This document shows, in pieces, positions 2,731-7,183 of a DNA stretch of 64,000 nucleotides. The stretch's first letter is position 1. Each line of letters begins with the position of its first letter. The position numbers and the translations under genes are program-made. The notes beneath the pieces are model-generated. The model saw nothing but the letters and a program-made list of their open reading frames with translations. It was not told where the DNA came from and did no database searches. This DNA comes from Gemmatimonadota bacterium (GTDB lineage: Bacteria; JAAXHH01): positions 1-64,000 of the forward strand of contig JAPOZT010000023.1 of NCBI GenBank assembly GCA_026705925.1, written 5' to 3'.

Positions 2731-4515
2731 ATCCCTTCGATCCACACCATCGGCATTCCGGTCCGCAGCGTCAACTGGGTCCGGGTCTTCCCCACGCTGG
2801 ACGGGGCCGGCCGGGACTGCCTGGTGGCCGTGATGGGTCAGCAGGCGGCGGGGTTCACCGTCGTGAAAATCGATCCGGCCACGGGCACGACCTCCCAGGT
2901 GACTTCATCCGATCCCACCGCCAATTTCCCCACGGGCGCACTGCGCACCCGCGACGGACGAATCTACGTCGGGGCCGCCTACGCAGGGCATCTCTACCGT
3001 TACGATCCCGCGACGGAACGGCTGGACGACCTGGGCGCCATCAACCTGCCCGACGATACCTTTCCCTGTAACATGGACGAGGACGCGGACGGCGTGATCT
3101 GGATCGGGTGCTACGGGTCGGCCGGCCTGACGAGCTACGACCCCGCGGCCGATGCCTTCACCCGCCACGGGCGGATGGACGAGACCGACATGTACTGCTA
3201 TCCCCACGTCGGCGCGGGGGGCACGATCGCCTGCCACATCAGGATGACCCGTCCGCATGTGGTCGTCTACGATCCGGCGTCGGGCCGGCGCGAGACCGTG
3301 GGGACCGTGGTCACGGAGGACGGGGGATCGCTGAACCTGTACCGGGCGGGCGACGGGCAACTTTACATCCGGTCGACCGCGGGCGATTACCGACTGAACG
3401 GCTTCGAAGCCGAACCCGTAGATGATCTACCGGATTCGGCACCGCCGCCTACCCTCTCCGATGGATCCACGGCGGATTTCGCGGACCGGGCAATCCAGAT
3501 GTTCCGCGAGATGGCCATTACTCAACCGGGATCCAACAGGATGCGCACCCTGCCCGTAGCCTATGAATCCTCGGGCAGCGAGATCTTCCTGGTGCATCGC
3601 GGACCCGACGACAACCTGTATGGCTCGAGCATCCTGCCGCTTCACTTCTTCCGCCATGATCCGTCTACCGGCGCCATGGACGACCTGGGCATATGCACCA
3701 CCGCCACTGGGGAAGCCTATTCCATGGCCAACATGGACGGCAAGCTCTACATCTGCTCCTACCCGGGTGCCGTGCTGTCCGTCTACGATCCCGCCCGACC
3801 CTACCATTTCGGGAAAGACACGGGCAGCAACCCCCGCGACCTAGGTCGCATGGACGAGATTTCCTATCGGCCGCGTTCCATGGTCGCCGGTCCCCTGGGC
3901 CGCGTGTGGACGGCCTCCGTGCCGAACTACGGCATGTGGGGAGGACCGTTGTCCTGGTACGATCCGGTCGCGGATGCATTCGGTACCTATCGCGATATCG
4001 CCGGGGACGCAAGTTGCTGGTCGCTGGCCTGGCTGGAAGCCCATGGCCTGCTGGCCGTCGGCACGACGATCGATGGCGGCACCGGCACGCAGCCGCGGGT
4101 AGACCAGGCGTCGCTGTTCCTCTGGGACTACGAGAAGGAGGAAAAGGTGTGGGAGGGCCGGCTACCGGTCGAGGTTACGGCCGTCAACGCGCTGGTCGTC
4201 ATGGACGGCTCCCTGCTGTGCGGGACGGCTCGCGTAGAATCCGGATCCATCCTCTTCGTTTTCGATGCCGATGACCGGCGGTTCGTGCACCTGGCTTCCC
4301 TACCGGGCGGGCGAGCCCTGGACGGAGGAATCCAGAACGGTCCGGATGGCGGTATATACGGATTCACGACCGACTGTTTCTACCGTTTCGATTCCGCCGC
4401 CGGCGTCGTGACCACGATTCTCGAAGCGCCGACCGCCTTCCAGACTCCCGGTCCGATGTACGGGGACGGTGTCTACTTCACGAAGAAACACGAGCTGAAG
4501 AAACTGGTGTTCTGA
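2731..4515 (+). CDS. Beta-propeller repeat protein of unknown function (probable AUC start)
   Basis: About 594 residues built from repeating propeller blades: recurring YDPA(S/T)xx and LGxI/LYxYDP units appear roughly every 45-60 residues (for example near 100, 145, 185, 360 and 420), as in SMP-30-like or PQQ-like propellers. No signal peptide is seen. The first canonical start (GTG 2824) would begin inside a blade-like strand. The frame stays open and protein-like upstream to ATC at 2731, five bases after the previous stop and downstream of a purine-rich stretch, so I extend it there. A ligand-binding or lactonase-like role is possible; no catalytic residues can be named. The fold call is good, the start and function are not. 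Confidence 0.6.
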   Translation: MPSIHTIGIPVRSVNWVRVFPTLDGAGRDCLVAVMGQQAAGFTVVKIDPATGTTSQVTSSDPTANFPTGALRTRDGRIYVGAAYAGHLYRYDPATERLDDLGAINLPDDTFPCNMDEDADGVIWIGCYGSAGLTSYDPAADAFTRHGRMDETDMYCYPHVGAGGTIACHIRMTRPHVVVYDPASGRRETVGTVVTEDGGSLNLYRAGDGQLYIRSTAGDYRLNGFEAEPVDDLPDSAPPPTLSDGSTADFADRAIQMFREMAITQPGSNRMRTLPVAYESSGSEIFLVHRGPDDNLYGSSILPLHFFRHDPSTGAMDDLGICTTATGEAYSMANMDGKLYICSYPGAVLSVYDPARPYHFGKDTGSNPRDLGRMDEISYRPRSMVAGPLGRVWTASVPNYGMWGGPLSWYDPVADAFGTYRDIAGDASCWSLAWLEAHGLLAVGTTIDGGTGTQPRVDQASLFLWDYEKEEKVWEGRLPVEVTAVNALVVMDGSLLCGTARVESGSILFVFDADDRRFVHLASLPGGRALDGGIQNGPDGGIYGFTTDCFYRFDSAAGVVTTILEAPTAFQTPGPMYGDGVYFTKKHELKKLVF

Positions 4516-5666: not shown

Positions 5667-6458
5667 CTAAAGCGCTATGATCCGCCGGATGCGCTCGGCG
5701 GTTTCCCGCATGGTGTCGTCGTCGCCGCCAACCTCGCTCACCAGGGCACCGTCGAACCCGATGCCGCGCAATTCAGCCATGACCGCCGGCCAGTCCGTAT
5801 CGCCGTCCATCAGCTGGACCCAGGCGCCTTCCCCGCGCCGGAAATCCTTCACGTGCACCTTGAAGATCCGTCGGCCCAGTTCCTTGATCCACATGTCGGG
5901 GTAGCCGTAGAGGATCATGTTAGCCGTGTCCAGGTAGATACCGATGGCGGGCGATCCTACCTCGTCGACGAGTTGGCGGGCTTCCCGGGGACTCAGCATG
6001 AACTGGTTCCACACGTTCTCGATGCCGATCCGTGTGCCGCGGCGTTCCGCCTCAGGCGCGAGATCACGCAGGGCGTCGCGGAAGTTGTCCCAGGTCGTCC
6101 CGTAGGAACTCGCCGGATCGAGCGCTCCGGGATGCAGGAGGAGGGCGTCTACACTCAGGATCTCGGCGATTTCGAAGCCGCGCTCGAGGATGGCAACCCG
6201 CTTCGCCCGTTCTTCCGCGGACGGCGACAACAGGGAGCCGGCATCACTGCGGATGGCGATCATGGAACACAGTTCGAGTCCATGATTCCTGCAGGCCTCC
6301 CCCACGGCGGCAATCTCCGAGGTAGAGGCGTCTATGTCCGGTGAACCCTGGTCGGAGAAAACCAGTTCGATGGCCTCGTAGCCCAGATCCCGGGTCTTCG
6401 AGAGATCCGCTTCGAGATCCTGGCGGGCGAGACAGAGTTGCGTGATGCCTGGCTTCAT
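5667..6458 (-). CDS. Sugar phosphate isomerase/epimerase (xylose isomerase-like TIM barrel)
   Basis: About 263 residues with the AP-endonuclease-2/xylose-isomerase-like TIM-barrel pattern: GITQLCLARQD at strand 1, LGYEAIELVF at strand 2, ALLLHPG, IGIENVWNQ (metal-binding Glu, about residue 147), IYLDTANM (Asp/His side) and FKVHVKDF (His). C-terminal SEVGGDD provides the last acidic ligand. The start chosen is ATG 6458, preceded by AAGGAG 10 bp upstream, rather than GTG 6491. Such enzymes interconvert keto- and aldo-sugars or epimerise them. The substrate is not predictable. It is divergent from the selenoprotein redoxin. Confidence 0.82.
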   Translation of the reverse strand: MKPGITQLCLARQDLEADLSKTRDLGYEAIELVFSDQGSPDIDASTSEIAAVGEACRNHGLELCSMIAIRSDAGSLLSPSAEERAKRVAILERGFEIAEILSVDALLLHPGALDPASSYGTTWDNFRDALRDLAPEAERRGTRIGIENVWNQFMLSPREARQLVDEVGSPAIGIYLDTANMILYGYPDMWIKELGRRIFKVHVKDFRRGEGAWVQLMDGDTDWPAVMAELRGIGFDGALVSEVGGDDDTMRETAERIRRIIAL

Positions 6459-6524
6459 GAGGAGGCGGCTCCTTGGAATCGTTTTGGGCACATGAAATCG
6501 TTGCGGACGGCGGTATTTTTGAAG

Positions 6525-6553
6525 TTAACAGTCGTGTCGGGGTAGGTTATATT
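6525..6553 (+). promoter_or_regulatory. Sigma-70-type promoter for the redoxin selenoprotein gene
   Basis: TTAACA at 6525-6530 (5 of 6 matches to TTGACA), a 17-bp spacer, then TATATT at 6548-6553 (5 of 6 to TATAAT). It lies about 55 bp upstream of the ATG at 6608 in an AT-rich pocket within GC-rich DNA. This is a consensus match only. Confidence 0.6.
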
Positions 6554-6607
6554 ATAAGTAACAAAACGCAAGCGAATTGCGCTGCAACTGAAACGAGGAG
6601 GAAGACC

Positions 6608-7183
6608 ATGATTCATACACTGGCGCGGTGGTGCTTCGCCCTGGCCCTGGTCGGCCTGGTGGCGGAGTCCGCCGACGCGCAACCCCGTAACCTGGCGCCG
6701 AGGCTGAGTGAGGCCGCACCGGAGTTCAGCCTGCAGGACGTTAACGGCGAGACCGTCAACTTCGCCGATTACAAGGGCAGCAAGAACCTGCTTGTGGTCG
6801 TCGACCGCGGCTGGATAGGCTACTGGTGACCCCTTTGCTTACGGCAACTGGGGCAGTTGCAATCCGATTACGAACGCATAGCAGCACTCGACACCGAACT
6901 ACTCTTCATCAATCCCGAAGATCTCGACCAGACCAGGGACTTCGTCGCCAAGTCGAAAGTCACGAGGGAGGAACTCTCCTTCCCCGTACTCGCCGACCCG
7001 GACCGGACTATTCCCACCAAGTTCAAGATCCAGAAAGCGACCGATAAGGGAACGGAAGTCATTCCCACGGCCTTCATCATCGACAAGGAAGGCATCCTTC
7101 GGTTCAAGTACGTGGGATCGGATCCCTTCGACCGGCCGTCGACCGACAGCCTGGTGGAGATCCTGGGTATGATCGAAGGGTAG
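6608..7183 (+). CDS. Secreted redoxin/peroxiredoxin-like selenoprotein (Sec encoded by TGA 6827-6829)
   Basis: A 191-residue thioredoxin-fold redoxin when the in-frame TGA at codon 74 is read as selenocysteine. The ATG at 6608 has GAGGAG 7 bp upstream. Residues 1-24 form a signal peptide ending SADA. APEFSLQD (about 37-44) and the YKGSKNLLVVV strand are typical of AhpC/TSA redoxins. The TGA falls in GYW-U-PLC, the position of the peroxidatic Cys in WCPxC, and leaves a UxxC pair (U74, C77). The same frame continues through RQLGQL to the cis-Pro region VIPTAFIIDKEG and ends normally at 7183. A 7-bp hairpin with a GGG loop follows the TGA. Predicted role: periplasmic peroxide or thiol redox chemistry. 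The alternative is a Cys-to-stop nonsense mutation. Confidence 0.85.
6827..6860 (+). promoter_or_regulatory. Putative bacterial SECIS element just after the UGA codon
   Basis: GCAACTG (6844-6850) pairs perfectly with CAGTTGC (6854-6860) around a GGG loop (6851-6853). The loop begins 22 nt after the last base of the TGA (6829). Published bacterial SECIS rules ask for a small apical loop with G in its first two positions, about 16-37 nt from the UGA; this stem fits. It also encodes conserved redoxin residues, so SECIS identity is inference. Confidence 0.75.

Follow-up and report, generated by a model that had tools for sequence, protein, structure and literature searches.

The locus analyzed here raises the question of whether a TGA codon lying inside a redoxin gene is the end of the protein or a site of selenocysteine (Sec) insertion. 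In the stretch of DNA under study (64,000 nucleotides, hereafter the window), a single frame on the forward strand runs from an ATG at 6608 to a TAG stop at 7181–7183, and only one internal TGA (6827–6829) is found, in the context RGWIGYW-U-PLC-LRQLGQL. Read through this codon, the coding sequence (6608–7183) would yield a putatively exported UxxC redoxin of 191 residues with Sec at position 74 (U74). A Shine-Dalgarno sequence, GAGGAGG (6595–6601), lies 6 bases ahead of the ATG, being found in 12 out of 12 members of the genus and absent from the homologues L116, L117, and L118. Moreover, codons 1 to 24 (6608–6679) resemble a signal peptide, with a hydrophobic core and an ADA-Q end whose cleavage site was placed by eye, and the L116, L117, and L118 redoxins have a comparable start ending in AQ, their start codons having been chosen in this analysis. 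A signal peptide is therefore likely from the sequence. The frame, its good ribosome-binding site, the single TGA, and the normal stop are as the initial annotation had described them, and the signal-peptide start that it proposed agrees with the leader judged here by eye. Downstream of the signal peptide, the only Cys or Sec besides U74 is Cys77 (codon 6836–6838), its partner in the UxxC motif. A promoter-like site upstream of the gene (TTAACA-17-TATATT, 6525–6553, forward strand) is weak and based on the consensus only, a single site occurring where shuffled sequences give 0.3 on average.

Right after the TGA lies a hairpin (6844–6860, forward strand) with a perfect stem of 7 bp, GCAACTG/CAGTTGC (6844–6850 and 6854–6860), and a GGG loop (6851–6853), just as first described. 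Counting from the TGA, the stem starts at base 15 and the loop at base 22. Bacterial SECIS elements have a small loop with an early G, located about 16 to 37 nucleotides after the UGA, and the hairpin fits this description in its loop size, early G, and position. The observation of a redoxin frame with an internal TGA and a hairpin is thus confirmed. However, it is not beyond chance in the window when taken alone. Among its 1691 TGA codons, 45 are preceded by 70 or more open codons and followed by 100 or more, and 11 of these 45, the one in the redoxin included, lie ahead of a comparable hairpin (at least 6 pairs, G-T allowed, with a G at the first or second loop position). The raw observation is weak, so it is conservation in relatives that decides the case.

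A homologue of the redoxin is found in 15 of the 16 genomes of the phylum that were searched (E <= 1e-8), and in the best match of each of the 15 the only internal stop is a TGA at codon 74. Twelve of these homologues come from the same genus, the window's own genome being counted, whereas the remaining three belong to one further genus of the same family and to two other families of the order, giving four genera in all. Identity to the window's redoxin ranges from 46 to 97% for the other 14 homologues and from 46 to 50% for the three outside the genus. The homologue in G012, of the same genus, ends at a contig end after 140 residues. Seven loci from a separate set (L001–L007, all with TGA) are the same places as 7 of the 15 and were counted once. 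In G001, the sole genome of the phylum without the redoxin gene, SelB and tRNA-Sec are present. All 15 members keep Sec, and no orthologue with Cys turned up in the 16 genomes; three more matches without an internal stop are distant paralogues (33–35% identity). Among 73 other loci, 50 have Cys at the position aligned to U74, 14 have Thr, 3 have Ser, and 1 has Tyr, the other 5 having a gap. An in-frame UGA that is conserved in the phylum, in a column that is Cys in other relatives, is what is expected of a selenoprotein gene, and this is the pattern that the alignment proposed in the initial annotation returns. A stop at another place or a decayed downstream frame in the relatives would have spoken against it; instead, the TGA is in place and the frame conserved. 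Also, the part after the TGA has an NG86 omega of 0.09 to 0.15 in five comparisons within the genus. Omega values from comparisons across genera carry no weight, given that dS is large or saturated there. In the window's own genome PF00578 gives 12 matches, 11 of them over the cut-off, and only the TGA redoxin has an internal stop.

The same site is also found well beyond the phylum. A family-profile search of 384 genomes gave 25 genomes at E <= 1e-20, 15 from the phylum and 10 from outside. Eight of these 10 carry a TGA in the same motif, whereas the other two (G150 and G287) have only stop-free matches with Cys at that site. The eight genomes hold 11 distant TGA sites, including a second one in the flank of L133, and the longer motif RGW(I/V)GYW-U-P-x-C is present in only one of them, L131. 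A 34-row tree was built from 8 of the 15 phylum sequences and 13 selected Cys loci, the rest being distant sites, with one of the two L133 domains omitted; in it, the Sec forms of the phylum group with L131 (support 88/79, unstarred). The labels of this tree require three changes between Sec and Cys, and the order of gain and loss is not fixed by it.

Some of the distant genomes hold more than one Sec redoxin. L133 (G054) has two in adjoining genes (sites 1618–1665 and 3036–3083), both with a GCARCTC-GGT-GAGTTGC hairpin at an equal distance from the UGA and both with an N-terminal part that, by eye only, is lipoprotein-like with a carboxypeptidase-regulatory-like stretch. G331 also has two, L140 (1636–1683), which is a UxxS form without a good hairpin, and L130. 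The two of G063 are L138, which has UGDC, and L131.

Regarding the hairpin, it is invariant in the 12 members of the genus, and the sole pair change within the phylum is a swap of the loop-closing pair from G-C to C-G in L116, accompanied by a change from Gln to Glu. Covariation within the phylum amounts to this one pair in one sequence, is reached by 73 of 500 shuffles, and is not convincing. When the comparison is widened to the full set of 26 sites, of which 18 are distinct, pairing is seen in 90.5% of 126 cells and 16 cells are changed on both sides; neither value, nor the covariation score, is reached by any of 500 shuffles, and controls in which the alignment was slid show at most 46% pairing. 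The number of pairs with a two-sided change (reached by 57 of 500 shuffles) and the further pair types (73 of 500) are unremarkable. Five of the 11 distant sites are without a clean stem (L128, L132, L134, L135, and L140), with other hairpins nearby in L132 and L135 and only a weak stem in L140. In the genus, codons 72 to 85 show no synonymous change, compared with 103 changed among the 185 degenerate codons of the gene; a run of 12 unchanged degenerate codons around the TGA and the hairpin is reached by 72 of 20,000 shuffles of codon order. On the other hand, when 48 nucleotides are folded from the UGA, 13 of the 15 phylum sequences (the 12 of the genus and L117) have a minimum-energy structure other than the hairpin, and the best fold contains it in L116 and L118. 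For the window's sequence, the hairpin is the best fold (-8.8 kcal/mol, z -2.1) once the UGA and the 12 bases that follow are removed. Since a ribosome paused at the UGA would cover these bases, the folding result is given little weight. A search of 6780–6920 against Rfam (E <= 10) returned only one meaningless lncRNA match. A chance hairpin is rejected, the TGA being conserved and the hairpin covarying across the 26 sites. Taken together, this comparison establishes a conserved TGA and hairpin, a part after the TGA that selection maintains as protein, and the presence of the decoding genes described below, and it raises the prediction of a selenoprotein far above chance.

What the protein would do depends on the kind of active site to which U74 belongs. 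The window's redoxin matches PF00578 (AhpC-TSA, 85.9 bits, cut-off 26) and PF08534 (Redoxin, 69.2 bits, cut-off 26.6), and 14 out of 14 members of the alignment A3 match PF00578 at E <= 0.001. An AlphaFold (AF2) model made with 7 near-identical rows had a pLDDT of 35.2, and a model based on the 54-row alignment A6 (the window, L001–L006, and 47 of the 73 loci L008–L080) was used instead. Its mean pLDDT is 81.7, with residues 7–28 and 70–72 under 50, and residue 74 immediately precedes the helix 75–86 of the redoxin fold. In A6, column 74 is Cys in 31 rows, Sec in 7 (the window and L001–L006), and Thr or Ser in 16, whereas the column of C77 is Cys in 54 of the 54. Moreover, the rows separate fully into two classes, 38 combining Cys or Sec at 74 with Pro at 153 and the other 16 combining Thr or Ser with Arg at these columns; the window's redoxin falls in the first. 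Its Pro153 codon (7064–7066, forward strand) falls at a column where classical peroxiredoxins have Arg and where every one of the 14 rows of A3 has Pro; we take this residue, by analogy, to be at the cis-proline position. Classical peroxiredoxins have a Thr or Ser three residues before the peroxidatic Cys, plus a catalytic Arg, and in the window's protein Sec and Pro take these two places. The initial annotation had placed U74 at the position of the peroxidatic Cys; instead, U74 lies on the Thr/Ser column, and it is C77 that lies on the column that is Cys in all rows. Its proposal of an exported selenoprotein with a U74/C77 pair stands with regard to the Sec gene, the SECIS-like hairpin, the UxxC motif (U74-P-L-C77), and the likely signal peptide, but not with regard to a peroxidatic site. 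In the alignment, U74 stands where a CxxC of the thioredoxin type has its first Cys, and the active site is of the thioredoxin/ResA kind.

Because of the UxxC motif and the Pro153 class, a thiol:disulfide oxidoreductase or reductase is favored over a classical Thr-Cys-Arg peroxidase, and the product is most likely an exported Prx-like thiol:disulfide oxidoreductase. It is highly probable that the gene product is an exported redoxin and that SelB, bound to the hairpin 15 to 31 nucleotides downstream, decodes UGA 74 as Sec. The signal peptide would then carry the protein across the inner membrane, and in the periplasm the selenolate of U74 would attack its substrate, either a disulfide or possibly a hydroperoxide or some other oxidized thiol. 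Cys77 would resolve the adduct with the substrate, leaving a U74-C77 selenenylsulfide to be reset by some thiol reductant.

The alternative that survives best keeps the same Sec protein and makes it a periplasmic peroxidase, where H2O2 or an organic peroxide would oxidize U74 to a selenenic acid, which Cys77 would resolve. The PF00578 and Redoxin matches over their cut-offs are compatible with this activity, and so are the nearest solved folds, since BCP/AhpC/Prx peroxiredoxins rank at the top for the model in Foldseek. Nonetheless, the Thr/Ser at -3 and the Arg153 of the 16 rows are replaced by Sec and Pro, and the best matches in the PDB by sequence are chains of the thioredoxin family and ResA. 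A peroxidase is therefore the less likely function, although one to be taken seriously. As a separate observation, a redoxin in a betaproteobacterial MAG (L072, near 5214) has a TGA at the column of the peroxidatic Cys (FTDT-U-TTEV) and an Arg ahead of a WFIID stretch, and it is possibly a TxxU Prx selenoprotein.

A second alternative would give the UGA an additional role as a selenium-dependent switch, with scarce selenium leading to a fragment of 73 residues and the hairpin mainly regulating output. Every UGA-Sec codon competes with release factor 2, which lends this idea some plausibility; however, the sequence beyond the TGA shows conservation at the protein level, no hint of an own role for the fragment came up among the features examined, and we consider such a switch improbable.

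Decoding as Sec, as preferred here, requires its machinery, and the initial annotation pointed to selA, selB, selC (tRNA-Sec), and selD in the rest of the genome as the place to look, their absence being an argument against a selenoprotein. All four are present over the curated cut-offs: selA (447 bits), selB (344 bits, two pieces together), and tRNA-Sec (70.6 bits, adjoining selB) in contig C5, and selD (255 bits) in contig C23. Weaker matches over the cut-off, four to the SelA model and one to that of tRNA-Sec, are far below the best. Among 26 genomes, SelB is over the cut-off in 22 and tRNA-Sec in 21; for the 23 genomes with U forms, the numbers are 21 and 20, whereas the two genomes with only Cys forms have neither. 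The U-form genomes G007 and G014, 87% and 85% complete, are without SelB and tRNA-Sec over the cut-off. G013, the genome of L116, has SelB and a Sec redoxin and no match for tRNA-Sec at E <= 1e-9, although it is listed as 99% complete; either an assembly gap or a divergent tRNA may account for this. These data also bear on programmed readthrough or a reassigned code, in which an ordinary residue such as Trp or Cys would be inserted at the UGA. The identity of the inserted residue cannot be named from the sequence alone, which leaves some room for this idea. However, TGA is the commonest stop in the window, ending 25 of 44 non-overlapping ORFs picked mechanically with a minimum length of about 200 codons; moreover, the site is Cys in thioredoxin-type relatives, SelA, SelB, SelD, and tRNA-Sec are present, and the hairpin covaries. 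Readthrough with an ordinary residue is thus very improbable, and a reassigned code is rejected. Finally, a nonsense mutation that splits a decaying redoxin gene in two, as the in-frame stop and the expected splitting by annotation pipelines might suggest, is hardly credible and is rejected as a pseudogene reading, because all 15 phylum homologues, from four genera, carry the TGA at this codon and the frame beyond it is open and conserved.

A selenoprotein of this kind would not be new as a family. Passages of the GOS survey describe 'Prx-like 1' (pfam00578, UxxC) with 225 sequences (PMC2398784), and the consulted part of the 2005 Sargasso paper places 22 Prx-like proteins with a thioredoxin-like UXXC among the known selenoproteins (PMC1088965), which lowers the novelty implied by the first reading. 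In excerpts of two reviews, from 2022 and 2026, the entry is 'Prx-like thiol:disulfide oxidoreductase, UxxC/UxxU' (PMC9312934, PMC13188914); the same excerpts have a UxxC 'Redoxin family protein', assigned PF08534 in PMC13188914 and given with no domain in PMC9312934. Very probably, the window's gene belongs to this already known bacterial Sec family (PF00578, UxxC; marine metagenomes). Its placement with the Prx-like selenoproteins (published representative WP_010940744.1) is by the PF00578 score, the UxxC motif, and published descriptions: it shares with them an AhpC-TSA match over the cut-off, a UxxC with Sec first, a hairpin right after the UGA, and known Cys relatives, and its branch differs in the longer RGW(I/V)GYW-U-P-x-C motif and the likely signal peptide. 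The 'Redoxin family protein' selenoproteins, compared by description, are alike in PF08534 over the cut-off and UxxC, although the window's protein scores higher on PF00578.

Other families are more remote by score. The best NCBIfam match is the SelL-related redox protein model NF040769 (E 2.2e-17), also matched by 14 out of 14 members of A3 at E <= 0.001; nevertheless, the window's protein reaches 63.3 bits against a cut-off of 120 and is not a SelL-related member by this score. With ResA and StoA it shares the C(U)xxC, the Pro at column 153, and the likely signal peptide, whereas it has Sec for the first Cys and remains below the NCBIfam cut-offs (48.5 of 170 bits for ResA and 36.8 of 210 bits for StoA). 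The Sec peroxiredoxins (TxxU, PrxU NF040737) have the superfamily and fold in common with it, but Sec is at another position of their motif, and the PrxU score is 19.0 bits against a cut-off of 270.

Regarding the lineage, no report of a selenoprotein was found for the Latescibacterota in the open-licence literature. The consulted part of PMC8318568 mentions Latescibacter and selenoprotein without connecting them, and 'Latesci' is absent from the consulted parts of PMC13188914 and of the deep-Sep paper PMC12013277. The neighborhood of the gene is of little help. A PF01261 TIM-barrel gene (5667–6491, reverse strand) lies upstream in divergent orientation and is found beside the redoxin in 10 of the 12 distinct relative loci searched, L117 from another family included (13 loci were given, L005 and L113 being one place). 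A lytic-transglycosylase-like gene is also located upstream, and neither neighbor offers a functional clue to the redoxin. None of the 11 NCBIfam models matching the window's protein reaches its cut-off, so that one would expect an annotation pipeline to truncate the protein after residue 73.

Beyond the known family, we tentatively consider that the genes with RGW[IV]GYW-U-P-x-C may form a distinct exported subfamily, with Sec in every lineage seen and in a phylum without described selenoproteins. Such proteins would perform a periplasmic reaction that Cys cannot support, and they would have kept an ancient SECIS hairpin while its pairs changed across phyla, a combination somewhat more doubtful than not. 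The redoxin leaves the existing knowledge of selenocysteine unchanged, and it illustrates how annotation can miss genes of this kind. With it, an uncultured lineage gains a well-supported selenoprotein gene, whose hairpin, fixed in position while its pairs change across phyla, would be useful for testing what SelB reads.
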